A model generated the notes under the pieces. The model was not told where the DNA came from and ran no database searches. It worked only from the letters and a program-made list of their open reading frames with translations. A program made the position numbers and the translations under genes. A DNA stretch of 64,000 nucleotides, taken from the NCBI GenBank assembly GCA_963082975.1, contig OY720346.1, positions 45,857,296-45,921,295 on the forward strand, given 5' to 3'. Below, piece after piece: positions 8,605 to 63,384 of this stretch (the first letter of the stretch is position 1; each line of letters begins with the position of its first letter). The stretch comes from Labia minor. Lineage: Eukaryota > Arthropoda > Insecta > Dermaptera > Spongiphoridae.

Positions 8605-9048
8605 TAATAAGTCTATTAATGGTTGGATGACGTCATATAATTTTAAATCAAGAAAAAACTAATAAAGATGATTTTTCTCGAGGATAAAACCACTACAAAG
8701 TGCAAGATTCGTGGTGATATGTAAAAAATCTCCTCATGTGAAATTTGGTGTCAAAATAACCCTTCCCTTTCTATCGTCGATCGCTAATACTACCACTTCC
8801 GGTTTCCGGATTTGCACCAAAAGTTGATCAATTCATCCCACTGATGCATTAAGTAAATATACCAAATATCATCAAAATCGGTTGAGCCGTTCAGGCTGTA
8901 CACATCTATACGGACGGACAGACATCATGCTAAAAATTCTTTTTTCTGTTAAGAAAATGCTTGATTCGTGGAAATATGTAAAAATCTCGACATGTGAAAT
9001 TTGGTGTGAAAACAATACCTCCCTTACTATCGTCGGTCGGTAAAAATA
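8605..9048 (-). mobile_element. Family X element (HINE-like), partial copy
   Basis: On the minus strand it starts TTTTTACCGACCGACGATAG (right edge near 9043) and runs through the CATGATGTCTGTCCGTCCG microsatellite segment and the block containing GGCTCAACCGATTTTGATGA to a TGACGTCAT motif near 8627. It lacks the 3' end (second inverted copy of ACCGACCGAC and hairpin) seen in the full-length copy at 37.6-38.3 kb. There is no ORF. Confidence 0.7.
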
Positions 9049-13737: not shown

Positions 13738-14700
13738 TGTTATATCTATCTACCTATGTGGCTCAAAGATACTCTAAAGTTCTTAGCCGCAACAACCACA
13801 TTTCTCCAAGTGTCCCTATCCTGAGCCCTTGTTCCATCTCTCTTACGTCCCTTCCTACGCGTCATTGGTTTTTCAAGCGGACGTTTTCCAATCGGTCTTC
13901 CCACCAATATCTTTTTCCTCTCCCATTCTAGCCACGTGCCCTGCCTATCGCAGCTTTTTCCCTTTTATAACCCTAACTATTTCTGAAGATGCAGAGAGGC
14001 CATGCAATTTCTTGTTATACAGTCTCCCTCATACCCGGTGACCTCATCTTTCTTTGGCCAATAAATGCAGGGAAGAATCCTATTCTCAAATACTCTGAAT
14101 CTACTCTCATCTCCAAGGGTCATAGACCATGCCCTCCACCCATATAATGCAACAGGCAAAATAATCTTTATATATATATTCCCTTTGATAATAATTTTGA
14201 AGAGATAAGCCTCTTTATTGCAGATAACAGGCGTTTCCCGATTGCAACCCCGATTTAAATTCTTCTCAAATATTTTATACATATTCAAATTCTACATTTT
14301 GTATCTTAAGATTTTGTATGTTAATACTCTTCCTCTTTGTTACTAAATATTTTTTCTTATCACTATTAATTTCAAACCTCCATTAAATTTTCCTCGCTAT
14401 CTGTAATTGAAATTGCCGAATCTCCTATTATATTTAAGTCGTCTGAGTAACCTAATATTTTACAATTGATTTCCGCATCTTATTCTTTCTTTACTACCTT
14501 CAAGAGAAATTTGAAGATTGAAAATTTGAAAAAGTTTATCCGGATCTATTGAGTCATGCGTATGTTTTACTAAAGTCTACAAATAATTAGTGAACAGAAA
14601 TATTGAATTCGCGGTTTTTTTCCTAATATCTGTCATAATGAAAATATCTTAATTAATGTTGGTCGATTTGGCCTGAACCCGCAATGATATCTCCTAATAT
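13738..14700 (-). pseudogene. RTE-like RT remnant carried inside the Helitron
   Basis: Minus-strand pieces include YHCGFRPNRPT and NREFNISVH, LFVDFSKTYA (RT palm FIDFxKAYDS motif), then IYIKIILPVALYGWRAWSMT, LGDESRFRVFENRILPCIYW and PKKDEVTG. Near 13760-13830 it ends in RDTWRN...AAKNFRV and a GGTAGATAGATA tail. Frames are broken many times. The order from QCGFRP to the C-terminal end shows it was a contiguous 3' part of an RTE-like LINE, including its tail, rather than a random exon capture. Confidence 0.75.
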
Positions 14701-16230
14701 TTCCTCCGCCTATGGTTCTTAAGTATTGTATATATTATAATAGTGAAATAGAGTATAATATTTCTTGATCATTACATTTTGGTATTTTATTTTCATTGCT
14801 AGATTATTATTGAATATTTTTAATTATAATGAAACTTGAGAAAATGCAAAAATAGAGACTTGAGACAATTTATAAAAATTAACGGTATAAAACTATAGAT
14901 AAATGACCAATATATACATTCATTAATAGTATTAATTTAAATTAATTGATTTATTTGTTTTTTTTATTATTAAGTTCATTTATTAATTTTTTTAGATCAT
15001 AGTTATTTTCCTTAAAAGAAACTTAAATTCTGTGGTGCTAGGGGATTTGAAAATTATTCGTCGCAATATGAAGATTTCGCTTACAGTTACTGTCATGTCC
15101 GACCTCCATCCAACAGTTATTTTCTGTTAAGTTTTTTGCTTCTCTTAATCATGTGATCTATATATTTAATTTTTTTTGATTCATTATAATAAAATTTAAA
15201 CAAATAAAAATTTTTACTTTGTTAATTTATATAAATTTCAATATACTTAAACTGATTGTGAGTGATACGCTTAGCCAATACTCTGAATAATTTGTGTACA
15301 AAAATATTGAATGTTCTTAGCGAGATTTGATATAATGTTGTACGATTTGTCCTAAATCTGAATTAGAAGAAAATTATAAATTGCATTAAAATGAGACCTT
15401 TTAGAATAAATTATTTAATTGAAATGATATTTAAATATAAGAATTTAAAAAAATATTATATTCTTTGTTTGGAAATTGTTATTTAATTATGTGCAACATG
15501 ATTCGACTTGCACAGAGCATCGTTATTTTTTATTAATAACACATAATAAAAATGAATCTTTTAAACATAATAAATAAAAAAGACATTTTAATAAATTTAA
15601 AAAATATACCCAATTTAAAAATGTCAAAAATTTAAAACAACTTTATATCATCATATTTTAATTTTTATATAATATATATATATATTTAGTAATTAATAAT
15701 AGAGTAATTAAATTAAAATAAAAAACAAAGATAATATAATTCAGTCATTTTAATTCAGGTTAAATAATATTTTTTTTTATTATTCAATGATAAAATTTAT
15801 ATATTATTATATATATATTATAGAAAAGAAGAAATATTCAATTAAATAAAAAATAATTTAAGATAAAAATATGATCTAATAAATATTTTAATTAAATTGA
15901 GAACTTTTAGAATAAATTATTTAATTGAATTGATATTTGTATATTAGAATTTAAAATAAAAAGGGAAATATTATAATAATTCTTCGATTGGGAATCTCTA
16001 TGATAATTCATTGTTTGAAATGATTCCGCTAGGCCGACAGTGAGCCGCGAGCTGCTCTTGAATGAACAACACGGAGAATTATATAAACTTTAAAAAATTA
16101 ATTTCTGCGGTTATTGATAAGATATTAATAAAATTTATAGCCTATGTTACTCTAGAGGTATATAAGAATATTGTGATGTAATTTCAAAGAAATCGGTTCA
16201 GCCAATTCTGAGTCTATAAAATAGTAATTT

Positions 16231-16234
16231 TCCG

Positions 16235-16309
<75 letters not shown>

Positions 16310-17952: not shown

Positions 17953-18819
17953 CAGTGATTCTCAAACACTGTGCCGCGGAACTTTAGTGTGCCGCGAGAT
18001 TACGAAGCTCTTAAACTTTTTTTCTAAATTTTCCAATTTGGTTCTAAAAAAAAAAAACGTTTTTGGGTCCACTTTTTTCAATATGGTAAACTTTTACACT
18101 TATATTTTTACTATCTCGCCAGAGATAGTATTGCGATCATGAAAATTTTCGATGTTGAGATTTTGATGTTTTTATACGTTTTGAAGGTTCCTGAATCATT
18201 TTCACTAAGGTTGAGAAAAATGTCTGTGTGTGTGTGTGTATGTGTGTATGTGTGTATGTGTGTATGTGTGTGTGTATGTATGTAGGCAAGATTACGCAAA
18301 AACGGTTTGAGCTAGAATGATGAAATTTGGTACATGGACATTATTCAAAATTCATAGTTTTCTATCAACTTTTGAGAAATGTAGCTCAACCGGAAGAGGG
18401 TCATTACCTACAACGTTTTGATTTTTTTTCCTCTAAAGTGACCGTAAAAATAAAGATATATGTTTGATAATTTTTCACATGATTAATAATTATATAAAAC
18501 TGCTATATATAGAATTTCAGCTTGATTGATTCGCTGAAATTACCAGAATTAATTTTTTAACACTGAAAATCTCACGCGTCAACACGTGACGTGGTGCCAT
18601 CAACAAAAAGCCAAACATGCGCTGGTTTAATATTTATTATTTATTATTTATAATTTATAATTAATTAAATTTAATTTAAATATAATATATTATGTTATTT
18701 AATCCAATTCAAATTGCGAGATAGTCGAGTGGAGACACTCCAGCTAATTCTTAGTGTGCTGCCAAATTTTTAAACCGTTAAGAGTGTGCCGCTGTAAAAA
18801 AAAAGGTTGAGAATCACTG
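17953..18819. mobile_element. hAT-type MITE, itself interrupted by a family Y element
   Basis: Left end CAGTGATTCTCAAACACTGT and right end (reverse complement) CAGTGATTCTCAACC. The subterminal parts share GTGCCGC(GG/TG) motifs. The 8 bases at each side are TTCCAATT and ATTTATTC, so the target duplication is not evident and may have decayed. Without the nested Y element at 18110-18749 the MITE is about 225 bp. Confidence 0.7.
18110..18749 (+). mobile_element. Family Y element (HINE-like), full length, nested in hAT MITE
   Basis: It starts ACTATCTCGCCAGAGATAG directly after a T run and has a GT/GTAT microsatellite near 18222-18285. It ends with the inverted copy GCGAGATAGT, a hairpin GAGTG-GAGA-CACTC, and then CAGCTAATT. 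This asymmetric arrangement (10-bp inverted repeat at the 5' tip and subterminal at the 3' side, followed by a hairpin) matches Helentron-associated elements. There is no coding capacity. Confidence 0.75.
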
Positions 18820-18990
18820 ATTTATTCCCTTAAATAAATTTTACTTCTAACTTCTAATCTTTCTTCTTCCATTCAAGCTTAATCTCTCCCACCCATTTTA
18901 ACTTTCTCCATTTTATAACTCTTTCTATTATTGGTAATACTTCTCTTCATTATCTAATCTCCATCATTCCTTACTAATATGATTCAATTT

Positions 18991-36084: not shown

Positions 36085-36784
36085 ACCGACCGACGATAGT
36101 AAGGAAGGAATTGTTTTCACACCAAATTTCATATGTGGAGATTTTTACATATCTTCACGAATCATGCATTTTCTTAATAGAAAAAAGTATTTTTAGCATG
36201 ATGTTTGTCCGTTCGTCCGTCCGTCTGTCCGTCCGTCCGTATAGATGTGTACAGCTTGAACGGCTCAACGGATTTTGTTGAAATTTGGTATATTTACTTA
36301 ATGCATCAGTAGGATGAATTGATCAACTTTTGGTGCAATTCCGGAAACCGGAAGTGGTAGTATTAGCGATCGACGATAGGAAGTGAAGGGTTCACATGAG
36401 GAGATTTTTTTATATATCACCACGAATCATGCACTTTGTATTGGTTTTATCCTCATGAAAAATCATATTTATTAGTTTTTTCTTGATTTAAAATTATATG
36501 ACGTCATCCAGTCATTCATGACGTCACATTCTGGTCTTACATATATATTACTAGCTGCTCAGAGCTCCTTCGTCGCTCTTCACATCTAGACGGGGGCTCC
36601 GCCCCCTGTACCCCCGAGTGGTACATAGTATTTGGTTGAAAGTAGTAAAAGGTTTTCATCCATTTTGTTTCAAACAATGTATAACATAAAACATTCATTT
36701 CTTATTGTGTGATTATTTAAAATATATTTTAATTTATTTAGTAAATTAATTATATATATTATTATTGAATATGTTATATCTATC

Positions 36785-37632
36785 TACTCGAAAGTTCTTG
36801 GCAGCTACAACCACATTTCTCCAAGTGTCCCCGGTGACCTCATCTTTCTTTGGCCAATAAATGCTGGAAAGAATAATCTGAATCTACTCTCATCTCCCAG
36901 GGTCATAGACCATGCGTGGCTCAACGGTACTCGAAAGTTCTTGGCAGCTTCAACCACATTTCTCCAAGTGTCCTTATCCTGAGCCTCTGTTCCATCTCTC
37001 GTACGTCATTCCCTGATGTACTCATCTTTCTTTGGCCCATAAATGATGGGGAGAATCCTATTCTCAAATACTCTGAATCCACTCTCATCTCCTAGGATCA
37101 TAGACTATGTCTCACACTCATATAATACAACAGACAAAATAATTGTTTTATATATTTTAATTTTCATTCCCTTTTATAATAATTTTGATGAGATAAGCCT
37201 CTTTACTGCATGATAACAGGCGTTTCCCGATTGCAACTTCGATTTAAATTCTTCTCAAATATTATTATCCTTTGTGATTACATTCAATTTTTCTACATAT
37301 TCAAATTCTACATTTTGTATGTTAATACTGCTCCTGTTTGTTTCTAAATATTTTTATTTATCATTATTAAATTTAAACCTCATCTCTTTTCCTACCTCCA
37401 TTAATTTTTCCTCGCTATCTGTAATTGCAATTGCCGAATCTGCTATTATATTTAAGTCGTCTGGGTCACCTAATATTTTACAATTGATTTCCGCATCTTA
37501 CTCTTTCTTTACTACCTTCAAGATAACTTTTAAGATCAAAATTTGAAAAAGTTTATCCGGATCTATTGAGTCATGCGTAGGTTTTACTAAAGTCTACAAA
37601 TAATTAGTGAACAGAGATATTGAATTCGCGGT
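36785..37632 (-). pseudogene. RTE-like RT remnant with duplicated 3' tail
   Basis: Minus-strand pieces correspond to LFVDFSKT, KILGDPDDLNIIADSAIAIT (RT active-site box, normally YADD, degraded to DPDD), NRSSINIQNVEFEYVEK, KTIILSVVLYE, DESRF, FENRILP and AAKNFRV. The last section occurs twice, at about 36785-36905 and 36905-37000. A 90-codon plus-strand ORF (37274-37546) is an antisense shadow. Confidence 0.72.
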
Positions 37633-37637
37633 TTTTT

Positions 37638-38280
37638 ACCGACCGACGATAGTAAGGGAGGTATTGTTTTCACACCAAATTTCACATGTGGAGATTTTTA
37701 CATATCTCCACGAATCATGCATTTTCTAAACAGAAAAAAGTATTTTTAGCATGATGTCTGTCCGTCCGTCCGTCTGTCCGTCCGTCCGTCCGTCCGTATA
37801 GATGTGTACAGCCTGAACGGCTCAACCGATTTTGATGAAATTTGGTATATTTACTTAATGCATCAGTGGGATGAATTGATCAACTTTTGGTGCAATTCCG
37901 GAAACCGGAAGTGGTAGTATTAGCGATCGACGATAGGAAGGAAAGGGTTATTTTCACACCAAAGGAGATTTTTTTATATATCACCACGAATCATGCACTT
38001 TGTATTGGTTTTATCCTCGAGAAAAATCATATTTATTAGTTTTTTCTTGATTTAAAATTATATGACGTCATCCAGCCATTCATGACGACACAGCCTGGTC
38101 TTGCATATATATTATAAATAAAATAAAATTAAAAATGTTTATATTTATTATTTATGTATCCATATCTGTTTTTAATTACATTAATAGATATATTAAAATT
38201 ATTTGAAATTGTTTCTGTAGCTGGAAATTAATTTATTTCAAACAGTCGGTCGGTTCGGACCTGGCCACAGGTCAACTTAT
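37638..38280 (+). mobile_element. Family X element (HINE-like), full length, uninterrupted
   Basis: ACCGACCGACGATAG sits at the 5' edge after a T run and a GTCC/GTCT microsatellite at 37757-37798. Inverted GTCGGTCGGT is at about 38245-38254, then the hairpin GACCTGGCCACAGGTC and the end AACTTAT(T). It is inserted in the T run of the Helitron; the related Helitron at 53.2 kb has an unbroken run there (about 54190-54196, reverse strand). It is the best reference copy of the family. Confidence 0.85.
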
Positions 38281-39106
38281 TTAATATCTGTCATAATGAA
38301 AATATCTTAATTAATGTTGATCGATTTAGCATGAACCCGCAATGATATCGTCTAATATTTCCTCCGCCTATAGTTTATAAGTATTGTATATGTTATAATA
38401 GAGTATAATATTTCTTGATCATTTCATTTCGATATTTTAATTTCATTGCTTGATTTTTATTGAATATTTTTATTTATAATAAAATTTGAGAAAATGCAAA
38501 GTTAGAGACTTGAGACAATTTATAAAAATTAACGGTATAAAAGTATTGATAAAACTAAAGATAAATTAACAATATATACATTCATTAATAGTATTAATTT
38601 AAATTAATGGATTTATTTGATTTTTTATTATTAAGTTCATTTATTAATTTTTTTAGATCATAGTTAAAATAAAAGAAGTATTCAAATATAGAAAGAATAA
38701 ATACAAAATAATTTAAGTTAAATATGATTTAAATATTTTATTATATTAATTAAAATGAGAACTTTTAGAATAAATTATTTAATTGAAATGATATTTGAAT
38801 ATTAGAATTTAAAATAAAAAGTGAAATATTATAATAATTCTTTGATTGGGAATTCTTTTTTGTTTGTTTCTATGACAGCAAAAAAGTAAACAAATTACAT
38901 ACATACATACATACAAACACTCTCCTTTATATATATAGATAAATAAAATAAAATTAAAAATGTTTATATTTATTATTTATGTATCCATATCTGTTTTTTA
39001 TTACATTAATAGATATATTAAAATTATTTGAAATTGTTTCTGTAGCTGGAAATTAATTTACTTCAAACCGTCGGTCGGTTCGGACCTGGCCACAGGTCAA
39101 CTTATT

Positions 39107-41669: not shown

Positions 41670-42337
41670 ACTATCTCGCCAGAGATAGTATTGCGATCAC
41701 GAAAATTTTCGATGTTGAGATTTTGATGTTTTTATACGTTTTGAAGGTTCCTGAATCATTTTCACTAAGGTTGAGAAAAATGTCTGTGTGTGTGTGTGTA
41801 TGTGTGTGTGTATGTGTGTGTGTATGTGTGTGTGTATGTGTGTATGTGTGTATGTGTGTGTGTATGTATGTAGGCAAGATTACGCAAAAACGGTTTGAGC
41901 TAGAATGATGAAATTTGGTACATGGACATTATTCAAAATTCATAGTTTTCTATCAACTTTTGAGAAATGTAGCTCAACCGGAAGAGGGTCATTACCTACA
42001 ACGTTTTGATTTTTTTTCCTCTAAAGTGACCGTAAAAATAAAGATATATGTTTGATAATTTTTCACATGATTAATAATTGTATAAAACTGCTATATATAG
42101 AATTTCAGCTTGATTGATTCGCTGAAATTACCAGAATTAATTTTTTAACACTGCAAATCTCACGCGCCAACACGTGACGTGGTGCCATCAACAAAAAGCC
42201 AAACATGCGCTGGTTTAATATTTATTATTTATTATTTATAATTTATAATTAATTAAATTTAATTTAAATATAATATATTATGTTATTTAATCCAATTCAA
42301 ATTGCGAGATAGTCGAGTGGAGACACTCCAGCTAATT
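41670..42337 (+). mobile_element. Family Y element (HINE-like), full length
   Basis: It starts ACTATCTCGCCAGAGATAG after TTTTT, and a GT/GTAT microsatellite covers about 41783-41870. The 3' side has GCGAGATAGT (42304-42313), hairpin GAGTG-GAGA-CACTC and CAGCTAATT. It is nearly identical to the copy at 18.1 kb apart from the microsatellite length. ORFs of 91 and 68 codons across the microsatellite are not genes. Confidence 0.85.
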
Positions 42338-46311: not shown

Positions 46312-48338
46312 CAGAAATATTGAATTTGCGGTGAAAATATCTTAATTAATGTTGATCGATTTGGCCTGAAACCGCATTGATATCTCCTAATATTTCCTCC
46401 GCCTATGGTTCGTAAGTATTGTATATGTTATAATAGAGAAATAGAGTATAATATTTCTTGATCATTTCATTTTGATATTTTATTTTCATTGCTTGATTTT
46501 TATTAAATATTTTTAATTATAATGAAATTTGAGAAAATGCAAAGTTAGAGACATGAGACAATTTATAAAAATTAACGGTATAAAACTATAGAAAAACTAT
46601 AGATAAATTAACAATATATACATTCATTAATAGTATTAATTTAAATTAATTGATTTATTTGTTTTTTTATTATTAAGTTCATTTATTAATTTTTTTAGAT
46701 CATATTTATTTTCCTCCTTTAAAAGAAACTTATCTAATTCTGTGGTGCTAGGAGATTTGAAAATTATTAGTCGCAACATGAAGATTTCGCTTACAGTTTC
46801 TGTCATGTCCGACCTCCACCCAACACTTATTTTCTCTCAAGTTTCTTGCTTCTCTTAATCACGTGATCTATATATATTTAATTTTTTTTGATTCATTATA
46901 ATAAAATTTAAACAAATAAAAATGTTCACTTTGTTAGTTTATATAAATTTCAATTTAAACTGACTGTGAGTCATACGCTTTGCCAAGACTGAATAATTTG
47001 TGCACAGAAATATTGAATGTTCTTAATGAGATTTGATATAATGTTGTCCGATTTATCCTAAATCTGATAGAAGAAAATTATAAATTGCCTCCTCTTCTAG
47101 CCCAATTCATTTACCCATCCATGTTGTATAAGGCATCTTAATTTCTTAACACTCCGTTTTTTACCGACCGACGATAGTAAGGAAGGTATTGTTTAAATTT
47201 AAAATAGAAGGAGAGAAAGAGTTTTAAATTATATTCGAATAGTCTATATATATTATAAATTAATATCAATATTTTTTTCTGAATTTAATACCAAGTTGAT
47301 TTTTAAAATTTTATATTCTTAATGCATATGATTGATTACATGTGTTAAAATTTAAACAAATTCAAATATTCTAATTTTTAAATTTATATACAATTTAATA
47401 TTATTATTTTTTATTAATATCATATCAAAAAGAGAATTTATTAAAAATTAAAAATAAAAAAAAACTATTAATAAAATATTAGAATAGAATATAATAATTT
47501 TGAATTAAAACAAATTTAAAAAAAAATACTCAATTTAAAAAACAAAAATTTAAAATATCTCGTTTATATATTATCATTTGTCTAAAAAATCATATTTTAA
47601 TTTTATATAACCAAGAAATCATTTTTGCACTTAAAATATAGTTGTAATTAATAATTGAAACAAAAACAAAAATAATATAATTTAGTCATTTTAATTGACG
47701 TTTTGAAAATATTTTTGTATTCATAAAACTTTAAAAACAATATATTCTGTTTTTTAACCTTTCACTTTCAAATAGAAAATAAGAAATATTCAAATATATA
47801 GAAAGAATAAATAAAAATAAAGTTAAATATGATAAAAATATTTTATTAAATTAATTAAAATGAGAACTTTTAGAATAAATTATTTAATTGAAATGATATT
47901 TGAATATTAGAATTTAAAATAAAAAGTTAAATATTATAATAATTCTTTTATTGGGAATCGCTAGAGAAATTTATATTCGTTGTGTTATATGATTCCGCTA
48001 GGGACAGTGGGCCACGCCAGGCTCTTGAATGAACAACACGGAGAATTATATAAACTTTAAAAAATTAATTTCTGTGGTTATTGATTAAATATTAATAAAA
48101 TTTATAGCCTATATTACTATAGAGGTATATAAGAATATTGTGATGTAATTTCATAGAAATCGGTTCGGTCAATTCTGAGTCTATAACATACTTATTTTCA
48201 GGACAGACAGACAGACAGACAGACATGAAAAATTCTAAAGTCACTTTTGGATCCTAGAGGTCATGAAACGCGAAGATAAGCAAAAATTTTTAAATTCTGA
48301 GCAATGCGCAGACAAAAACCTTTTTTTATATATATAGA
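46312..48338 (-). mobile_element. Helitron, 3'-truncated, 5' end intact
   Basis: The 5' end (minus) TCTATATATATAAAAAAAGG is at 48338, followed by the CTGCGCATTGCTCAGAATTT and GTCTGTCTG blocks and an A/T interior like that of the 13.5 kb copy. It breaks off at about 46312 inside the RT remnant (at the AATTCAATATTTCTGTTCAC block), so the hairpin end is missing. It abuts an X element on its right side. Confidence 0.72.
47160..47193 (+). repeat. Short family X 5' tip inside Helitron
   Basis: TTTTTTACCGACCGACGATAGTAAGG.. is the first part of family X only; the rest is missing. Either an abortive insertion or a deletion relic. Confidence 0.6.
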
Positions 48339-49000
48339 TATATTAGTAAGAGCTGACTGTGACGTCATGAAGGGCTGGATGACGTCATATTAATTTAAAT
48401 TAAGAAAAAACTAATGAAGATGATTTTCCCGAGGATAAAACCAATACAAAGTTCATGATTTGTGGAGATATGTAAAAATATCTCCTCATGTGAAATTTGG
48501 TGTGAAAATAACCCTTCTCTTCCAATCGTCGATCGCTAATACTACCACTTCCAGTTTCCGGATATACACCAAAAGTTGATCAATTCATCATACTGATGCA
48601 TTAAGTATATATACCATAGGTTCTTAAACTTATGTACTCCACGGACCCCCACTTGAAAAAAATTTTTTTGACGGACCCCCATCACAACTTTAGGTACTTT
48701 ACGTCATTTTATTAATTAATTTCTGGCTTACGATCTCATAAGGACAAGGATATATGATGAATATTTCTAACAGTGATTGGTGAATAACGATTTTTTTGCA
48801 TATTGTAGAACACATTTTATTAGAAATTATAATATTGAAGAAAGAAAATACAAACATTGTCATAGCAACAAATCTCACAAATTATAATGGGTACTTACAT
48901 TAAATTCATATAAATATTTTATAATTTTTTTCAGAAAATATTAAATAAGAAATATTTTAAAAAATAACTGCATCTATCTCATTAAATATAACTTACATAT

Positions 49001-50860
49001 TTAATGAGATGTATGCAGTTGTTTTCTTGAAACAAGAATCTCAATATCTGGCTTAATATTGGAAACTTTTAATCTAAGATCCGGCTCTACATTTAATTTG
49101 TTTCTATATTTAGACTTAATATAAAATAGTACCGAAAAAGCTTGTTCGCATAAATATGTTGTGCAGAATGGAATCAAGTGTTGAAGTGCTTTATTTGCAA
49201 GCGCAGGATAATCTGACCTGAGAAGTAACCAAAAGTTGCTCAATTCAGTTTTGTTAAATTTTAGTTTATAAGTTGTATCACATGATAATTCCACGAGAAT
49301 ATCTTGTTCAGGTGCAGATAAATGTTTAGTATTTGTAATTTCCATATTAAATGGATCTCTGATCCAGTTATTGCAAGGATCAGGAGTAGAAAAATACTTC
49401 CTGAAGTTGCTTTTCAAAGTAATTAAATGTTCAACAAATAATTGACGCGTTTGATTAAGCAATTTTTCACTGGAGCTTTCTATGAAATCATTGAGAGTTG
49501 GAAAAGACTCATATACACCGTTCTGGATGCGTTTCGACCACAAGTCGATTTTTTTAATCATTGCTTCTATTTTATCTTCAACTTTAAATATATTTACAAC
49601 AGTACCTTGCAGGCTCAAATTAAGTTCGTTCAATTTTGTAAAAATATCAGTCAAGTAAGCCACCTTAGCTAACCAGATAAAATCATTGAAACATTCGGTC
49701 AGTTCAAAATGCGCATCTATTAAAAACAATCGTATTTCATCTCGAAGCTCAAAAAGGCGAATGAGTACTTTCCCGCGGGACAACCAACGTACATCTGTAT
49801 GTAATAATAAATGTGTATGTTGACTACCCATTTCCTCACACAAAATTTTAAAAACTCTGGAATTAAGTGGACGAGCCTTAATGAAATTGACAATTTTAAC
49901 TACTTCGTCTAATGTTCTTTTCAAATCTGGTGACATATTTTTGGCTGCTAAGGATTCTCTGTGAATGCAGCAATGATTCCAAACAACCTGAGGCGCAACA
50001 TTTTTAATAAGAGCAATCAATCCAGTTCTTGTACCTGACATTGCACGAGCACCATCAGTGCAAATTCCAACACATTTTGGCCACTCTATTTCATTTTCGG
50101 TTATAAAATTATTCAAACTGTTAAATATGTCATTAGCTGTCGTTCGTGAAGGTAGTGAATCACAAAACAATACATCTTCTTGTATTTGATTTTCAAACTC
50201 ATATCTAATGAAAGCTAACAAATTGGCATTATTAGTGACATCAGTACTTTCATCCAATTGTAATGAGTAATAGTGACTTTTGCGCACTCTCGATATTAAT
50301 TCTTCTTTTATATTACATGACATGTCTTCAATCCTATTCTTAACCGTATCATTTGATAATGAAATCAAATTTATATCGTTTGCTGCTTTAGTTCCTAACA
50401 TTATATTTGTAATTACTTTTGTAGCAGGAAGAATTAATTGCTCTGCTATATTATGCGGCTTTCCTGCTTTAGCAATAAGTAGAGCTACTTCATATGATGC
50501 CATTACTGCTTTCTTACTCATACCACCAGATCCCGTCTTTACCATCAATTTCTGACTTGAATTAAGTTCTTCTTTTTTCATTTTAAAAAATTCGATAGAC
50601 TTACTAACATGCTCGCTGTGCTTTGTTTGTAAATGACGTCTGAGATTAGCAGGTTTCATACTTTCATTGGATAAACTTTCCTGACATAGAACGCAGACTG
50701 GTCTTTCCACATCATTGTTGCAAATATAAGTAAATCCAAATGATAAATAATCATCCGAATATTTTCTAGTTTTGCGTTTCTTGGTAGAGTTTGCTGTTGA
50801 TGCCTCATCATCTGATTCTTTCCGTTTCTGTGTTGAACCAGTTTGTAGCCAACGATCCAT
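49001..50860 (-). CDS. hAT transposase, ZBED5/FAM200-like
   Basis: This 619-residue protein should excise and reinsert the surrounding element in the nucleus. A basic N-terminus (KKRKTRK, about 27-33, likely nuclear localisation) precedes a BED-type zinc finger with C56-x2-C59 and H76-x4-H81. The hAT catalytic triad is plausible: D203 in LQLDESTDV, D269 in GICTDGARAMSG and E572 in the C-terminal CEQAFSVL block; WNHCCIHRESL (about 294-304) is the family's C/H motif. The C-terminal LSNFW..YP..LIPF region is the hAT dimerisation domain. Length and order fit ZBED5/FAM200/SCAND3-like transposases common in arthropods and domesticated in vertebrates. The ATG at 50860 gives MDRWLQ, the usual start in this group. 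It lies centrally between inverted ends, so it is a transposon gene rather than a domesticated one. No stops or frameshifts. Confidence 0.93.
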   Translation of the reverse strand: MDRWLQTGSTQKRKESDDEASTANSTKKRKTRKYSDDYLSFGFTYICNNDVERPVCVLCQESLSNESMKPANLRRHLQTKHSEHVSKSIEFFKMKKEELNSSQKLMVKTGSGGMSKKAVMASYEVALLIAKAGKPHNIAEQLILPATKVITNIMLGTKAANDINLISLSNDTVKNRIEDMSCNIKEELISRVRKSHYYSLQLDESTDVTNNANLLAFIRYEFENQIQEDVLFCDSLPSRTTANDIFNSLNNFITENEIEWPKCVGICTDGARAMSGTRTGLIALIKNVAPQVVWNHCCIHRESLAAKNMSPDLKRTLDEVVKIVNFIKARPLNSRVFKILCEEMGSQHTHLLLHTDVRWLSRGKVLIRLFELRDEIRLFLIDAHFELTECFNDFIWLAKVAYLTDIFTKLNELNLSLQGTVVNIFKVEDKIEAMIKKIDLWSKRIQNGVYESFPTLNDFIESSSEKLLNQTRQLFVEHLITLKSNFRKYFSTPDPCNNWIRDPFNMEITNTKHLSAPEQDILVELSCDTTYKLKFNKTELSNFWLLLRSDYPALANKALQHLIPFCTTYLCEQAFSVLFYIKSKYRNKLNVEPDLRLKVSNIKPDIEILVSRKQLHTSH

Positions 50861-50884
50861 TTTATGGAGTAATTTATTAACATT

Positions 50885-51182
50885 GAACTACAATAATATA
50901 AATATAATATAAATATAATATAAATATAACGAATTATTATTTACTAGCTATGTTTTAATATGATTTTAAATGAATGTTTTAATATCATTTTAAATGAATG
51001 TTTTAAATCATTTTAATAAATGTTTTAAATCATTTTAAATAAATGATTTAATATCATTTTAAATGAATATTAATTTATATAATAAATATATTTCGTAATT
51101 TGATTCTAAAATATTATTAATTTCGTAATTTGATTCTAAAATATTATTAATTTCGTAATTTGATTCTAAAATATTATTAAAA
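50885..51182. repeat. Tandem repeats upstream of the hAT transposase
   Basis: There are three arrays: ATATAAATATA units at about 50890-50930; a roughly 26-bp unit (ATGTTTTAATATCATTTTAA..) repeated about five times at 50950-51070; and a 31-bp unit (TTTCGTAATTTGATTCTAAA..) repeated three times at about 51090-51180. A 55-bp unit containing GATACAACTCGTTGAGAAAT is duplicated at about 51368-51476. In hAT elements subterminal repeats often bind transposase; here this is only inferred. Confidence 0.75.
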
Positions 51183-52148
51183 TAAATATTTTTTATTCAT
51201 AAAACTAACTTATACTTACTCTCAAAAACAGCCTTTCTGGGAAATTGCAAAATGTGTTTAGTGTTTTTATAAAATAATGATCATGCAAATTACACTAAAA
51301 ATTAAAAAAAATTATTAGCTATAATAAACTATTATTAGCTATAATTTAATTATAATTAATTAAATTAATAAAAATAATTTAAAGATACAACTCGTTGAGA
51401 AATGAACTTATAATTAACATTAATAAAAATAATTTAAAGATACAACTCGTTGAGAAATGAACTTATAATTAACATTTGCTTTAAAACTGTTTAAAACCCC
51501 AGAGTGGACGCTGACAATTTGGGTTTTTCCGGGTAAGACTGTCCCCTCCCCTGGTTTTCCCCAATAACAAAGTGAAAGAAAATTCCCTTATATGCCTCCC
51601 CTTCCGAGCCCCTAAGAGGGGTTATTTTAAAGGAACAATCGAAAAATGATTTTAAATGAATGAATGGATGAAAATTCAAATTTTATATATAGTTTTTTAT
51701 ATATGTTTATTTATTCACAAAAAATTAATTGACATAATTATCAATTTAATAAAATAAAATAGTATTATTAATAGTATTAAATTATAGCCGTAATTCTCTA
51801 GGAGGATATAGTTAAACAATGAACTTTAAATATTTATATATGTATATATTTTTACGATGATTTTTTTCCGAGGACCGCGGACCCCCAGTAAAGGCTTCGC
51901 GGACCCCCAGGGGTCCGCGGACCACAGTTTAAGAACCACTGATATATACCAAATATCATCATAATCCGTGAGCCGTTCAAGCTGTACACATCTATACGGA
52001 CATACAGCGGACGGACGGACGGACAGATATCATGCTAAAAATACTTTTTTATGTTAAGAAAATGCATGATTCGTGGAGATATGTAAAAATTTCCACATGT
52101 GAAATTTGATGTGAAAACAATACCTCCCTTACTATCGTCGGTCGGTAA

Positions 52149-55240: not shown

Positions 55241-56629
55241 TATTATATATAGATTACTTTACATTAATTTATTAAAATTTTTATATATTAATAAATATAT
55301 GTTTTTAAGTTGAATTATAAATAATTTAATTTTATTAATTAATTAATTTTTATTCTTTTCAATAAAATTTTTTTTTCGAAAGTAAAGTACTTATAATATA
55401 GATTCATTTCCGGCTTGTATCTTTTTACAGATATCCGTGTTTCACATAATCTGATTACAAAAAGTGGTTTTTCCGATGACGTTTGTGTGTGTGTGGTGAA
55501 AATTCGGGAACAAAATTCAAAGAACTGATCATAACCAAATTTTATATATAAGGTTCCATTGGAGTCATAACGACCTAGTAACATTTTCGTTTAAGTACAT
55601 TCATAAAAAACAAAGAAAATAAGACTTGTTATATTATTATATTTATGTAAAGTGGAATTTTATTTAAACAACTCGAAAAGAGATTTGATACTGGAAATGG
55701 GTGGCCGAAGTTTTTGTTTATTTATTATTAAGTCAAAGTATAGTAATCAAAACCAACAAAAAAATTAAATTCTGAATAATATAAACATTTTTTTGGAATT
55801 TCCCATATTTTTATAAAATTCATAAAATTGTCAAATTTAATATTTAATAAGAGATAGGAGAGAAAATAAAAATTTAATTTAATCTGGGTGTGAATTAGTT
55901 CTTTTGATGGCAGGGTTTCATTGCATTTGATGAAGGTGATTAGTATAGTAAAATTACAAGGTAACATTTCGTAAACATATCAAAGGCTTATTATAGAATA
56001 TTAGACTAAATTTCAATTCCCTCATTTCTATCATCCCATTTATATTCTCTTGCTTTGACTCTTGACTTTCCAAGTACATCAAATCGGTTAATCTGACAAC
56101 TAAACGTATTTATCATCTAATCCCTTTGATCTTAATTTAATTAATATTTTAATGAGTCTTATATCAGTATATCTTCGGCGCCACTGAACATAAAAATTTT
56201 TGGTAGCAGCAACTACATTCCTACAACTATCTCCTACATGGAATTATCTTAAAACTGATTTTATATTATCTTATCTTGCCGCTATATTCTTGATTTATCA
56301 ACCAATCATTTTCGACCATCTCATAATTAAAAATGAGACTAAATTAAAAAACTATTTAAAATAATAGCTTTTAGAGAGAATTGATTTGATTTATATTTCC
56401 ATGGTTAAAGTGTTTTAACTTAAATTATTAATTAAATATTAATCCTAGATTGTATTATCCCTTTCACCCTGCCCTTAGAGTTGAGAGAAAACTAACTTGG
56501 AGTTCACTTTGAAGCCTTCTCCTCCCCCAAGCTGATATAATAGTGTTTGTTTCGTAATAACAATTTTAGAATTTACATTTCTAACGTATATATATTTAAA
56601 AATACGATTATGAAAAATTGAATTGATTA
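55241..56629. other. AT-rich stretch with RTE tail fragment
   Basis: Around 56170-56235 (minus) AAAATTTTTGGTAGCAGCAA resembles the AAKNF end of the RTE-like elements. The rest is A/T-rich with no recognisable gene. The two minus-strand ORFs of about 80 codons at 55339-55967 have no domain features. Confidence 0.35.
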
Positions 56630-57000
56630 CATGTTGCTTAATAAGATTTGAATCTCGACGTTCTGATGCATTTTGGGAAGAAAATTTTGGGATTAAGGGG
56701 CTTCTAATCTGTGTGCTCCGGAATCATTTACTCGTATATAGCTCGTAGTTTGAGTAAGTGCTAGTGTTTGATTTGCTGTATTTTGAACTTCCTAACACTG
56801 TGATACTTCTGGGATTCAAATTATAGTAATCCAAAAATTAAAAATAATTGATGAAAGAGGAAAAAGAAAAAATAAGTTTTATATTATTTCATTAATTTAA
56901 CGTTTACCATATTATGCTAACGTTTCGGTTTTGGTTAAGAACAATTTCATTCAATTAAATAAATGAAACAATACAAAATTGTCTTTCACCTTTTTCGTCA
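56630..57000. repeat. Possible diverged member of the hairpin-repeat family
   Basis: TCTCGACGTTCTGATGCATT..GGGATTAAGGGGC..CTGTGTG and later CTAACGTTTCGGTTTTGGTT share the ACGTTTCGG motif and the order (hairpin motif, GTGTG block) of the 9.3, 19.4 and 45.0 kb copies. Too diverged to align safely. Confidence 0.3.
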
Positions 57001-57115
57001 ATCATTAGACCTATAAACGGAATTAATAGTATTGTGTGAACTGAGGGTGATAATTAAAAAAATCTAATAATAGAATCTTAAGAACTTTTGAAAAATTTTT
57101 GTTTTTTTATTTTAC

Positions 57116-57155
<40 letters not shown>

Positions 57156-58319
57156 TATAATGTAAGCTCAAATCCCTAATTAAGGAGAGCAAATAATAAA
57201 TAATTTATATATATTAATGAGTATGATGTTAATTATTTAGAATATAGAATATATTTATATGCACTCTCTTAGATTTCTATTTAAATTGTTTTTTGAAACT
57301 CATTTAATTGTTAATGAGTCAAAATACTACGCTTTCTTATATCATCTATCGCTCTTTAAAATGGGAACACGAACTCCTGAAAACAACCTGAATAATTAAT
57401 TAATCAGATTAATATTATTAAATACGAGTCATTACAGTCTACCTAGAAAAGATTATTTTTAAAGTGAAAAAAACAAATTTAAATATATTAAAGGAAGGGA
57501 TTTTTTAAAATATATATTATTGATTAAATAAAAACTCTCAAATACACTGATTACTTTAAGATACATTTAAATTAATTATTAAATTTTGAGAAAATCAGAT
57601 TTGTTATTAATAGCTTCACATATGTAGATATAAAAGATAACATTTAATACATTTAATAATGTAATTTTAGGAAATCTCATATATGTATACTAATCACATC
57701 GAGATACACTAATTAATATATAATTTATTTTAAAATTTATTTTAAGAAAAATGAAATTATATTGATTATTCTAAAAAAAAAAAATAAAAACATATTTTTT
57801 CAATAAATGTCAATTACAAAAATATAATAAAATATAAAAGCATAAATATATATGTACTATAAATTTAAGATTTATTTTTTTTTTTTATTTAAACACCTTG
57901 TATATTTTTTTCTTATAGTTTAATCGTTCACTATAATTTTCCTCTTTTTTTTCTTTCACCAGAAATCTAAATTAAGATAAATTATAAATTACTCCAAACA
58001 CTTTCTCTCTATCCACAATTAATTCTTAAAAGTAATGTATATTCATCTTTATTTAAATTAATTTCTTTAACTCTTCTATTTGTTTAAATTGATATGTTCC
58101 TTAAGTTTCATTTTTTACCCAATTTTCATTATTATATTATAATATATATATATTTGAATGTTCAAAGTTATTCATAATTTGGACCAAAAATAAGTAAATA
58201 AAAAAAAAACGGCAAAATGAGAAAGGATTTTAAAATTAAATCTGGAGTATCTCCAATCGACTAACTCCCAAATTTGAATTGGATTAATTAACATATATAT
58301 TATATTTAAATTAAATTTA
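57001..58319. other. AT-rich stretch with a long TA run
   Basis: TA microsatellite at 57118-57162. Nothing else was recognised. Confidence 0.45.
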
Positions 58320-58774
58320 ATTAATTAAATTATAAATTAAAATTATTAAATAATATTTTAAACCAGCGCGTGTTTGGCTCTGTTGTTGATGGCACCATGT
58401 GACGTGCTGGTGCGTGATTTGCAGTGTTAAAAATTAATTCCGATACTTTCACCGATTCAATTAAGCTGAAATTCTGTATATACAATTTTTAATCATGTGA
58501 AAAACTATCAAACATATATGTTTATTTTTACGGTCAATTTAGAGGAAAAAAATTGAAAACATAGAAGGTAATGACACTCTTCCGGATGAGATACATTTCT
58601 CAAAAGTTGATAGCAAACTCCGAATTTTGAATAATGCTCGTATACCAAATTTCATTATTCTAGCTCAAACCGTTTTTGCGTAATCTTGTCTACATACACA
58701 CATACACACAGACATTTTTCTCAACCTTAGTGAAAATGACTCAGAGACCTTCAAAACATCTCTGGCGAGATAGT
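58320..58774 (-). mobile_element. Family Y element (HINE-like), older copy
   Basis: On the minus strand it starts ACTATCTCGCCAGAGAT (58774), keeps the GTGTGTATGTGTG microsatellite, the GCAAAAACGGTTTGAGCTAG block and the GCCAAACACGCGCTGGTTTA block, then fades into A/T before reaching the 3' hairpin. It is clearly more diverged than the other three copies. Confidence 0.7.
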
Positions 58775-58864
58775 AAAATTATGTCACAATATTTGAAATT
58801 GTTAGTCTCATTGTAATATAATTTAGCTCTTTCATTAGTAACTTAAATAATTATTAATTAATTA

Positions 58865-59095
58865 ATTTATATCTATCTGTGAACTCTAAAGTTCTTGGCC
58901 GCAACAACCACATTCCTCCAAGTGTTCTTGGCCTTCCCAATCGGTCTCCTCACCAATATATTTTTCGCCTCTCCCATTTTAGTCACGTGCCCTGACCATC
59001 ACAGCCTTCTCGATTTTATAACCCCAATTATGTCTGGAGATGCATAGAGGTCATACAATTTCTCGTTATGCAGTCTCCGCCATTCCCCTGTTATT
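58865..59095 (-). pseudogene. RTE-like 3' fragment
   Basis: The minus strand ends in AAKNFRVH and GATAGATATAAATTAATTAA, with VARMGE-like and LYDLYASPDI-type pieces further upstream (CTTGGCCGCAACAACCACAT in plus orientation). It is not inside a recognisable Helitron, so it is an independent 5'-truncated copy whose tail is GATAGATA. Confidence 0.65.
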
Positions 59096-59629
59096 AATTT
59101 ATTTATACTCTTATTAAATTGATTGTCACGATAAAATTATTAAATTTTTTGTTATCATTCTTTTTCTAGAAATATTCCCAAATAGACAATTTCTAATCTT
59201 ATCTATCCTATTTTAGGAGAGAGACAAGTTTTTAGGGGCACTTAGTATAAGTTTGTGACCTTTAAATTATTTTTTATTTTTTTTTTTTTTTTTTGTTAAT
59301 TATTTTAAATAATTTTCATTGGAACTAAATTATTAACTTATATAAGTACATATTTATAAAAATTTGATATTTTATTTTATTTATGTATTGATTGTTCACA
59401 TTATATGTTATTTAATATAAAAAAAATGAAAAACAATGAAAAAAAAAAGCAAAATGTGCAGCATCGTACACGTGGCGGAAGTGAAACTTCTTACAATCTA
59501 GAGAATAAGATAAATTTTAGTTGAGAGTGTGAGTGAGAGAGAAATAGAGAAAAATAAAGGGATCATTTCGAAAGACATATAACAGTATAAAATTTTCGTA
59601 ACAAATATTCGCTTTATTATTATTATTAT
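59096..59629. other. AT-rich spacer
   Basis: Nothing recognised apart from poly-T at about 59272-59295. Confidence 0.4.
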
Positions 59630-60199
59630 CTATTCTATCATCATATCTACATTGCCTGTACTATTGTCGGTTGGTGCTTCAATTGGTAATACTGATATTA
59701 ATGGCTTGTGATAACTAAAATAAGATATATATGTTCGTGATTCGATATTTTCTATATAACGTGTAAAAACAGCATCTATTGTAGTTCCAGATTTTGTTGT
59801 TGATTCCTTGGGATCGTTATTTATAAGCAGACCAAATGTTTCTCGAAGAAAGTTGATCAACGGCAACGAATCATCAGATCCAAAATTTACATTAAAATCT
59901 CCCCCGAGAATTAGAGGGATTTTATCTTCGCCTCGTTCAAGTGCATTAGCACCTGTGTGGCTATAAACCAGTAGTGAAAGGTGTATGAAATAAATAATAT
60001 CGTCTAAATTTTGGTCGTTATTTTTTTTCGGCATAGTGAAATCTGTGGAGTAGAGAAAAGCAGTTTTAAATGCAATAATAATTTTAAATTGATTTAGTAG
60101 TGTTAAAGTAATGTTGAGATTCGGATAAATAACGTGAATGGTCATCGACGCACATAACTGTATGTGTTGGCGTGTGAATCGCCGACCATGTTCACACAC
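59630..60199 (-). CDS. Endonuclease-like ORF of Helentron type (partial)
   Basis: This 189-codon ORF has a conserved C-terminal half: DIIYFIHLSLLVYSHTGANA (about 68-87), PLILGGDFNVNF (about 95-106; the GDFN motif of exonuclease/endonuclease/phosphatase folds), LPLINFLRETFGLLINNDPK, STTKSGTTIDAVFTRYIENI (the GTxIDxVF motif) and SYFSYHKPLISVLP (final catalytic S/D-H region). From family knowledge this fold, in this form, is widespread in arthropods and found beside PIF1 helicases in Helentrons (Rep-Hel-EN). The first 60 residues look less conserved and may be 5' non-coding or a spurious extension, so the real start may be internal or in another exon. No helicase or Rep sequence was found near it, so it is probably a fragment. 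Open frame, no stops. Confidence 0.6.
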   Translation of the reverse strand: MCEHGRRFTRQHIQLCASMTIHVIYPNLNITLTLLNQFKIIIAFKTAFLYSTDFTMPKKNNDQNLDDIIYFIHLSLLVYSHTGANALERGEDKIPLILGGDFNVNFGSDDSLPLINFLRETFGLLINNDPKESTTKSGTTIDAVFTRYIENIESRTYISYFSYHKPLISVLPIEAPTDNSTGNVDMMIE

Positions 60200-60263
60200 A
60201 CAATTACATGCGTCGGTATGCGTGCACGCTGTATATTTGACTTGAGAATTTTAATTATTTCAC
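60200..60263. other. Short spacer
   Basis: Less A/T-rich flank of the endonuclease-like ORF containing ACATGCGTCGGTATGCGTGC. Nothing recognised. Confidence 0.3.
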
Positions 60264-61110
60264 GATATATATCTTATCTTATTATGCTAGCTAAAATTGT
60301 ATATATCTATCTATTTATCTATAACCATTGGTTCTCAAAAACCGCTCTAACGATTTTTTTCAAATTCACACTAGATATAGTATTTATAAAGAAAAATTGA
60401 GTTTTATTGATTACATCTCTTGAAACTTACAGCTTCATTATTAATTTCTTAATTGAAAATTATATATGGGTGACGTAAATGGCATCCATTTTGAAATTTT
60501 ACTCCCGCCTTTTTTTAATTTTGTATTAATATTTTTTTTATATTTAAAATATTTTAAAATTTATAATTTAATTTCGAAATAAAATTAAAAATATTTATTT
60601 TTAATAAAATATATATATATATTTATTAATCCCGCTTTTTTTTTAAATGATATTGTATTAACATTTTTTTATATTTAAAATATTTTAAAATTCATTATTT
60701 AATTTCGAAATTTTATATTTAAAATATTTTAAAATTTATTATTTAATTTCGAAATAAAATTAAAAATATTTATTTTTAATAAAATATATATATATATTTA
60801 TTAATCCCGCTTTTTTTTAAATGATATTGTATTAACATTTTTTTATATTTAAAATATTTTAAAATTCATTATTTAATTTCGAAATAAAATTAAAAATATT
60901 TATTTTTAATAAAATATATATATATTTATTAATCTCTCTCAAAAAAAAACAACAAAACAAATAAATGTCTTTGAAAGATGGTAAAAATATCTTTGTAATT
61001 ATCAAAATATCATAGACCAGCAGTAAGAACAATTGTTTTTACTCCCCGAGTTCGAAGGATCGAAACTCGCCGCGTGCATTTTTTTTTTATCTATTTTCGT
61101 GATTTATTTA
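60264..61110 (+). mobile_element. Family Z repeat, copy 1, with internal tandem duplication
   Basis: It shares TATCTTATCTTATTATGCTA, GGTTCTCAAAAACCGCTCTA and ACTAGATATAGTATTTATAA with 63.4 kb. The AT-rich part containing TTTCGAAATAAAATTAAAAA is present three times here (anchors at 60575, 60751, 60881) but once in the other copy. It ends beyond AATCTCTCTCAAAAAAAA with a tRNA-like B-box element ATCGAAACTCGCCG near 61055. The 5' sequence TATCTATC..TTGGTTCTC resembles Helitron starts, but no CTAG hairpin end was found. Confidence 0.55.
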
Positions 61111-61310
61111 TTCATTGTTCTTTTATTAATTAAGTTTTAGATAGTTTTATAATTTTTAATATTTTTTCAATAAAATATTATTTAATACATTTAATAATTG
61201 TAATAAATAATTAAAGAATTGTATATCAATATTTTTTAAAGGGTAGAGCGAGCTCGGTGTCTCAGGTATTAATATTACCAGCCAAATCCAATAATAATGA
61301 ATCATTTTTT

Positions 61311-61434
61311 ACTATCTCGCCAGAGATAGTATTGCGATCACGAAAATTTTCGATGTTGAGATTTTGATGTTTTTATACTTTTTGAAGGTTCCTGAATCAT
61401 TTTCACTAAGGTTGAGAAAAATGTCTGTGTGTGT

Positions 61435-61470
<36 letters not shown>

Positions 61471-61862
61471 AGGCAAGATTACGCAAAAACGGTTTGAGCT
61501 AGAATGATGAAATTTGGTACATGGACATTATTCAAAATTCATAGTTTTCTATCAACTTTTGAGAAATGTAGCTCAACCGGAAGAGGGTCATTACCTACAA
61601 CGTTTTGATTTTTTTTCCTCTAAAGTGACCGTAAAAATAAAGATATATGTTTGATAATTTTTCACATGATTAATAATTGTATAAAACTGCTATATATAGA
61701 ATTTCAGCTTGATTGATTAGCTGAAATTACCAGAATTAATTTTTTAACACTGCAAATCTCACGCGCCAACACGTGACGTGGTGCCATCAACAAAAAGCCA
61801 AACATGCGCTGGTTTAATATTTATTATTTATTATTTATAATTTATAATTAATTAAATTTAAT
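61311..61862 (+). mobile_element. Family Y element (HINE-like), 3' end missing
   Basis: It is nearly identical to the 41.7 kb copy from ACTATCTCGCC through the GT microsatellite (61426-61468) to AATTAATTAAATTTAAT, where similarity stops before the inverted repeat and hairpin. A run of T precedes it. Confidence 0.8.
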
Positions 61863-62165
61863 AATAATTTTTAAATAATATAAATAATATTTAATTATAA
61901 TCTAATCAAAGAAAATAAAAGTTTGAATCTATTTGATAGTTGATCTTTTTACATATAATTAATCTCAAATTAAATATTTTTTAATATTAAAAAAAAATAA
62001 CAAATTTCATATGTATATTTATTTTTATAAATGTTTAGGCAAATTTTGAAATTAATATATATTTAAATTCAAATTGTATTTAATTGCGATATCTACTGGA
62101 CAAGGTGGAGATCTCGCCCTCTTTTGATCATAAGTCATACTAATTTTTATTCTTTGACCCAGTAG
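61863..62165. other. AT-rich spacer
   Basis: Nothing recognised. Confidence 0.4.
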
Positions 62166-62520
62166 AAGCTGAGAAATATTATTCCGCGTCAACGTACTAC
62201 CGCGCATGCGCGCCGTGGACTTTGGACCTAGCGAGAGCGTAGTAGAACGAAAGACAGCACAAAACGAAGAGGCAGATAGCCTCTTTCTCAAAGACTGTCA
62301 AAGACGAAAGACCGGACAAAAGAAAGACCCAGATAGAGGCTATCTCTCTCTCTCAAAAACGAAACACCGCACAAAAGAGAGTCGGAGATAGAGGCTATCT
62401 CATTCTCACTCGTTATATCTATATCTTTTTTCTCTTTCGTTTCGTAACGCGTTACGAAATTTCAATTTTTCAATTCACTCTCCATTCTCAACCAAATGTC
62501 AGGACGCCGCTAAAGAAGTT
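62166..62520. promoter_or_regulatory. GC-richer promoter-like segment with NRF1-type palindrome and three tandem hairpin units
   Basis: CGCGCATGCGCG at 62201-62212 matches the NRF1/ewg binding palindrome found in many animal promoters. It is followed by three tandem units of about 50-57 bp (starting 62248, 62305 and 62360), each with CGAAA(G/C)AC(A/C)G.ACAAAA and, in units 2 and 3, a perfect stem GATAG-AGG-CTATC. No convincing ORF follows on either strand. It may be the promoter of a gene lying outside or of an untraced transposon. Confidence 0.35.
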
Positions 62521-62559
62521 TCACTTCAATAATAAATATTAAAATAATGGTAATATTAA

Positions 62560-62760
62560 TTTGTCCGGGACATTTTTGGGGTACGTTTCGGGTTGGGAGG
62601 TCGCAGGGCCAGGGCAGGGTGACGCAGGACGCCGGGCCCCGCCCCGACCTGGCTCCTATCGAGCGGCCCTCCCCGACAACCCCCCATCATCTCTCACCCT
62701 GCTCTAAGCTATTGAGGATGAGGAGATTGGGGGGGGAATGAGGGGTTAGAAAAGGGGGTT
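62560..62760. other. GC-rich patch, unidentified
   Basis: It holds runs such as GGGCCCCGCCCCGACC and GGGGGGGG in otherwise A/T-rich sequence. Its start (TTGTCCGGGACATTTTTGGGG) recalls, in reverse, the interior of the MITE at 23246-23426, so it could be a decayed MITE. A 64-codon ORF across it is low complexity. Confidence 0.3.
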
Positions 62761-63384
62761 CAAATTTTGTATGCCAACCTAAATAGGATCGCGATAGTGT
62801 GGTCAGCAAATAGATAAATATTTCAAAACAAACCTTCATACCTTTATCAAATAACACGATAAACAAAAAAATACAAAAACAAAAAAAAATAAAAATAAAA
62901 ATTCCCCTCTCATTTGAATATTATTTTTTTTCTTCCTTTCACTTTTTACTAAACAATTGAATTTAAAAAATAAATAAATAAATAAACAAACAAAATTTAA
63001 AAGCAAACAATTCATTCAAATTGTAGAGGATTTTTTATAATAATATCCTATTGTATATATATATATAACAATTTCCCATTTGTTATGCTTTTGTTTTATT
63101 GATATGAAATTAATTTGATATTTAAAAACAATTTATAATTAAAAGTATTTATAAGTGAAAAATGCTAACAATATATTGATCATATTTATATAGTTCTACT
63201 ATGCATTTTTCAAATTAACACTTTTTTTAAAATTTATTTTTAATGTTTATAAAATATTTAAAAAATTAAATTACAAAAAAAAAAACAATTCATAAAATAA
63301 TTTATAGAAATTTACAATATTTTTTATGATATATTTATTTTATTGAAAAGAAAAGAAAAATAATATAATATTTATATATACATA
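62761..63384. other. AT-rich spacer with short microsatellites
   Basis: Runs of AAATAAATAAATAAAC and poly-A are present. Nothing else was recognised. Confidence 0.4.

Follow-up and report, generated by a model that had tools for sequence, protein, structure and literature searches.

Introduction

The DINE-1/INE-1 elements of Drosophila are built in a fixed order of parts, consisting of a tip repeat, a GTCY microsatellite, a conserved core (about 90 bp), internal repeats, a 3' inverted repeat and a hairpin; they also carry a 5' inverted repeat, insert at T-rich sites with no clear target duplication and contain no ORF (Yang and Barbash, 2008; PMC2374699). In several Drosophila species their partner is a Helentron, according to a later study (PMC4067079). 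The same study describes the HINEs of mites and mosquitoes, which have subterminal repeats, a 3' palindrome at 8-35 bp from the end, T-rich targets with unmodified empty sites, no coding sequence and, in some, microsatellites, and for which autonomous partners were found (Thomas et al., 2014; PMC4067079). In the mite HINEs the subterminal repeats themselves form palindromes, situated 38-60 bp from the 3' end; these elements have no 5' inverted repeat and no core, and the 5' inverted repeat is not obligatory in all HINEs (PMC4067079). The Cg_HINE elements of the Pacific oyster combine a 5' subterminal repeat of 11-12 bp, a 5' inverted repeat, a GTCY/GTCC microsatellite, satellite-like central arrays, a 3' subterminal repeat and a palindrome, and no autonomous partner could be linked to them in the oyster (PMC7492417).

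Two short families, X and Y, are described here from a window of 64,000 nucleotides (G000:C4:45857296-45921295; G+C 26%) in a genome of 604,477,936 bases and 71 contigs. By their anatomy and exact insertion sites they appear to be new members of this well-known kind, and X and Y are very probably two families of non-autonomous Helentron-type rolling-circle transposons (HINEs, of the DINE-1/INE-1 kind) without protein genes. They share with DINE-1 the order of parts (including the GTCY array in X), the T-rich insertion and the lack of both a clear target duplication and an ORF; the 5' inverted repeat is present in Y and lacking in X. In contrast to the 13-bp ATACCC-type tip of DINE-1, the tips here have 10-11 bp (ACCGACCGAC in X, ACTATCTCGC in Y), the array of Y is GT rather than GTCY, and their core is likened to that of DINE-1 by description. 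The subterminal repeats, palindrome position, target, empty sites and microsatellites of the mite and mosquito HINEs are likewise found in X and Y; unlike the mite elements, both have a core and their 3' copy lies only 24-27 nt from the end, and their partner enzyme is presumed, whereas that of the mite and mosquito elements was found. The oyster elements share these parts, the 5' inverted repeat being shared with Y, and differ from X in their central arrays, X having a partial central repeat that is doubled in one copy (L007).

Anatomy of the X and Y Families

X had been laid out in the initial annotation as a tip, a GTCC/GTCT array, an inverted 3' copy and a hairpin. This plan is present, and the element ends at 38281, one base beyond the 38280 given there, with the terminal sequence AACTTATT.

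37638..38281, + strand: full-length copy of X, 644 bp, within a repeat with an uninterrupted relative at 55250-53593
37638..37647, + strand: 5' tip ACCGACCGAC, the 5' subterminal repeat of X
37756..37797, + strand: GTCC/GTCT (GTCY) microsatellite of X
37816..37914, + strand: core of X, colinear with the core of Y
37924..38004, + strand: diverged second copy of the 5' module of X, 74.7% identical to the first
38245..38254, + strand: 3' subterminal inverted copy GTCGGTCGGT
38258..38273, + strand: 3' hairpin GACCTG-GCCA-CAGGTC, 8 nt from the element end

The first 90 bp of X recur, in diverged form, 3' of the core. The 3' hairpin folds with a z of -2.20 against 200 shuffles, and a 5' inverted repeat is absent, the 5' end giving a z of -0.08 with 86 of 200 shuffles folding equally well. 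In the X copy of L007 (376-1325), which has both ends intact and is preceded by five Ts, the unit of microsatellite, core and module is present twice with a spacing of 282 bp; central repeats have been reported for DINE-1 (PMC2374699) and for oyster HINEs (PMC7492417).

Y follows the plan that had been proposed for it, with a tip, a GT array, an inverted 3' copy and the hairpin GAGTG-GAGA-CACTC at 42315-42328, and its last base is 42337 (terminal sequence CAGCTAATT).

41670..42337, + strand: full-length copy of Y, 668 bp
41670..41689, + strand: 5' tip of Y with its own inverted repeat, ACTATCTC-GCCA-GAGATAGT
41670..41679, + strand: tip ACTATCTCGC, the 5' subterminal repeat of Y
41781..41872, + strand: GT/GTAT (GT-rich) microsatellite of Y
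41889..41987, + strand: core of Y, colinear with the core of X
42304..42313, + strand: 3' subterminal inverted copy GCGAGATAGT
42315..42330, + strand: 3' hairpin of Y in two overlapping registers, 42315-42328 or 42318-42330

The 5' hairpin ACTATCTC-GCCA-GAGATAGT, which had been missed at first, is a perfect 8-bp stem with a z of -3.65, and none of 200 shuffles was as stable. The 3' hairpin can alternatively pair as TGGAG-ACA-CTCCA, and this register is whole in four of the five distinct 3'-end variants of Y, as compared to two of five for GAGTG-GAGA-CACTC. Folding of the 3' hairpin in two copies gave z values of -2.06 and -0.86 (200 shuffles each), the latter being a weak fold. Two kinds of 3' end occur among the Y copies, CCAGCTAATT (or CCAGCTTATT) and CCAGATTT..., the second defining the Yb type. 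The Yb end reads CCAG and then ATTTTTT, Ts that may or may not be part of the element. At two separate loci, L008 and L029, X begins right at the T run that closes a Yb-type Y (CCAGATTT...), so that the 3' end of the Y family is used there as a landing site by the X family.

A Core Common to X and Y

The two families had initially been regarded as unrelated in sequence, and this proved wrong for the core. Comparison of X 37816-37914 with Y 41889-41987 revealed a colinear alignment of about 100 bp with a score of 24, above all of 1,000 shuffles (mean 11.8, sd 1.7, maximum 20). Stricter scoring gave a weaker result (31 against a shuffle mean of 20.6 and maximum of 36), so that the evidence for the core lies in a long colinear match and not in a short identical block. 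The head and tail comparisons of X and Y were within the shuffle range (25 against a maximum of 27, and 46 against a maximum of 47; 300 shuffles each). A 14-mer common to X and Y, with one mismatch allowed, occurs eight times in the window against 0.14 expected, and all eight occurrences lie inside X or Y copies. Thus tips, microsatellites and hairpins are unlike between the families, and the core occupies the same place in both, after the microsatellite. Querying the literature for the core motif in combination with Helitron retrieved no papers.

One possible, rather speculative reading is that the core could be the site at which one common Helentron machinery acts in recognition or replication, with ends and core evolving as separate modules. 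If so, families would exchange the pair of tip and hairpin while retaining the core, and the A-microsatellite-core unit of X, doubled in L007, would be the multiplying part.

Copy Number, Ends and Target of X

X has at least 46 matches in its own 604-Mb genome, a lower bound given that 40 of 333 first-look candidates were scored; a comparison of X with phage records gave no match. Thirty loci were taken from the listed matches, and 29 were kept after L020 was dropped for having the same 3' flank as L017. The ends of these copies vary little, variable ends having been named as an argument against a HINE: the exact 10-base tip is present at 24 of the 29 loci, the exact 3' subterminal copy and the exact 3' hairpin at 25 each, and the terminal CTTATT at 28.

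A run of at least five Ts lies directly 5' of X at 24 of the 29 loci, compared to 0.7% of window positions that directly follow such a run, and the base 3' of the element is T in 24, A in four and G in one. The initial statement that all copies start after a T run thus holds for these 24 loci and fails for L006, L011, L014 and L030, with one or two Ts, and for L016, where the tip is damaged.

The fetched X copies diverged from their own consensus by 0.31 to 4.86%, in a sample biased toward query-like copies. The closest copies, at about 0.3% from this consensus in a sample that favours close copies, suggest recent movement of X, and the genome may still harbour an enzyme that works or did so until recently.

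Precision of Insertion at Empty Sites

For 36 copies, the two flanks were joined and the product was searched for in the window and in the 30 loci. Clean junction-spanning empty sites were recovered for eight of the 36 queries, representing five distinct X sites (L017, L018 and L020 counted as one) and one Y site, and the other 28 queries had no clean empty site in this set; for the Yb-type Y at L015, the candidates were weak AT-rich matches alone. The site of the window X (L001) is empty at 54340-54041, with 98.7% identity over 300 bp, and a second relative at 14470-14779 has a 3-base indel beside the junction. The L005 site is empty in L010 and at window 61187-61302, the L009 site in L002, and the L017/L018/L020 site at window 15870-15574, while L010 is an X inserted into X, for which the same T run is uninterrupted in many X copies. 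For the Y site at 18110, L004 and L009 are exact at the junction and L002 differs by one base.

The junctions, with a slash for the insertion point, are T6/T, T5/T or T5/C, with the element at the end of the T run and zero bases lost. The search for paralogous empty sites, which had been proposed as a check, thus yielded exact insertion with no deletion and no target duplication beyond an ambiguous TT at all six of these sites. Since the target itself ends in Ts, the final TT fits equally as element or as duplicated target, and the DINE-1 report describes the same ambiguity between duplication and element end (PMC2374699).

Arrangement of the Copies

Further copies in the window are as follows.

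36085..36550, + strand: left part of an older X copy (X 1-477), split off by the repeat 36551-38928
38929..39106, + strand: right part of the older X copy (X 468-644)
8615..9041, - strand: X copy truncated at the 3' side (X 1-446)
51944..52146, - strand: X copy truncated at the 3' side (X 1-213)
48321..48616, - strand: internal part of X (X 206-491)
47163..47194, + strand: X tip alone, 32 bp, following a T run
18110..18749, + strand: full-length copy of Y, within an interspersed repeat that has a paralogous empty site
61311..61862, + strand: Y copy truncated at the 3' side (Y 1-594)
58242..58757, - strand: diverged Y copy, tip missing

X transposed on more than one occasion, because the older X is split by the repeat 36551-38928, which is itself the host of the full-length X. 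This repeat, leaving aside the inserted X, is interspersed, has a TACA-type repeat at its end and has relatives at 55250-53593 and 14029-15012; our impression is that it is a LINE-like retroelement. The Y copy at 18110-18749 is 95.2% identical to that at 41670-42337. It is carried by an inverted-repeat element at 17953-18825 (CAGTGATTCTCAAACAC ... GAGAATCACTG), which we take to be a hAT-type MITE, and relatives of this element in L002, L004 and L009 are the empty sites.

Several loci have more than one X. L012 is a head-to-tail dimer with three bases between the copies, L015 has X followed by a partial X, and L017 has two copies separated by 95 bp, with X plus the 95 bp doubled in tandem. L017 and L020, on contigs C6 and C5, have in common a 2.2-kb stretch that includes X, at 99% identity, so some X copies spread within larger duplications. 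L005 is a tandem array with a period of 745, whose inner copies end at X position 475. This array was rejected as proof of rolling-circle replication: about 257 bp of each unit is DNA other than X, and tandem duplication of the ordinary kind explains it equally well. The head-to-tail copies suit a rolling-circle route, and those of L005 and L017 also fit plain duplication.

Class Assignment and Proposed Mechanism

The HINE or INE-1-type reading of the initial annotation is well supported by the anatomy, the T-run target, the exact empty sites and the common core. X and Y both have a 5' subterminal repeat at the tip, an internal inverted 3' copy with a hairpin just downstream, a core directly behind the microsatellite of the 5' part, no coding capacity, and a T-rich target that is without modification at the empty sites, with which a TT duplication is also compatible. 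The length of their subterminal repeats is 10 bp in the copies of the window and, by reading, 11 in the X consensus, at or below the 11-15 bp published for HINEs. The lack of a 5' inverted repeat in X, the weak fold in one Y 3' end and the five of 29 X loci that depart from the T5 run count against this reading.

X and Y might instead be cut-and-paste elements akin to MITEs, a class to which DINE-1 was formerly assigned, that duplicate a TT target and have inverted repeats in subterminal rather than terminal position. Every empty site is equally compatible with such a duplication and with a TT at the end of the element itself, and the tip has inverted copies near both ends; the ends are, however, asymmetric, because the 3' copy lies inside the end (by 27 nt in X and 24 nt in Y) and is followed by a hairpin. 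The internal position of this copy and the lack of any duplication beyond the ambiguous TT led us to set aside a cut-and-paste transposon with terminal inverted repeats. Cut-and-paste movement is also at odds with the head-to-tail X copies and with the common core and GTCY array, which follow the plan of DINE-1, an element that is paired with a Helentron in several Drosophila species (PMC4067079), and we regard it as improbable.

Non-autonomous canonical Helitrons would account for a 3' hairpin near the end and for the lack of a clear target duplication, but X (ACCG...TTATT) and Y (ACTA...TAATT) have no 5'-TC or 3'-CTRR ends and insert at T/T or T/C and not at A/T, so this assignment was rejected from the ends and junctions and is very improbable. 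That X and Y are SINE-like short retroposons or ordinary dispersed duplications without end recognition of their own is hardly credible and is disfavoured by the empty sites. In its favour, several copies are truncated and L017 and L020 have their 2.2-kb stretch on two contigs; against it, most loci keep both ends, the insertions are exact, and the compared junctions have neither target duplications of variable length nor poly-A or 3' repeat tails.

For the preferred Helentron-type reading, the features observed directly (tip, microsatellite, common core, 3' subterminal repeat, hairpin, T-run target, exact junctions and head-to-tail copies) could be used as follows. An autonomous Helentron elsewhere in the genome would supply a Rep-helicase-endonuclease, which would nick the 5' tip; its helicase would peel off a single strand, presumably replaced by synthesis. 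The 3' subterminal repeat and hairpin may serve as a stop mark, by analogy with the Helitron Helraiser, for which a terminator hairpin and circular forms have been described (PMC4778049). The strand or circle would then be joined into a new site immediately downstream of a stretch of about five Ts. With exact empty sites, copies within copies and the common core, X and Y lend themselves cleanly to the question of what the Helentron enzyme recognises in a HINE; otherwise, they extend a widely known class.

Coding Capacity of the Window

No ORF of at least 120 aa (stop to stop) overlaps X or Y. The initial annotation had taken one ORF in the window, together with the two families, as a sign of an active or recently active Helentron system.

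59633..60250, - strand: ORF fragment of 206 aa from stop to stop, endonuclease-like; link to X or Y not established

Its motifs may be Helentron-like. Its single Pfam match, to Exo_endo_phos_2, is below threshold (E 0.0072; 16.6 bits against a cut-off of 27.4), it had no match among solved structures, and neither of two pattern hits in viral contigs was confirmed. By eye, no Rep- or helicase-like frame was seen among the stop-to-stop frames of at least 45 aa at 56000-64000. An active system was thus not established from this ORF, a lone fragment with a weak match, and it was set aside as a sign of activity.

Two adjacent frames of 146 and 203 aa at 11035-12087 (+ strand) resemble by eye the fragment upstream of a reverse transcriptase and had no Pfam match at E 0.01. 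A 628-aa frame at 49001-50887 (- strand), stop to stop, has weak matches to the hAT dimerisation domain (E 0.00086, under the curated cut-off) and to the BED zinc finger, and is a predicted hAT-like transposase. The window also contains, at 16235-16309, a perfect (GACA) array of 18.8 copies with 100% matches.
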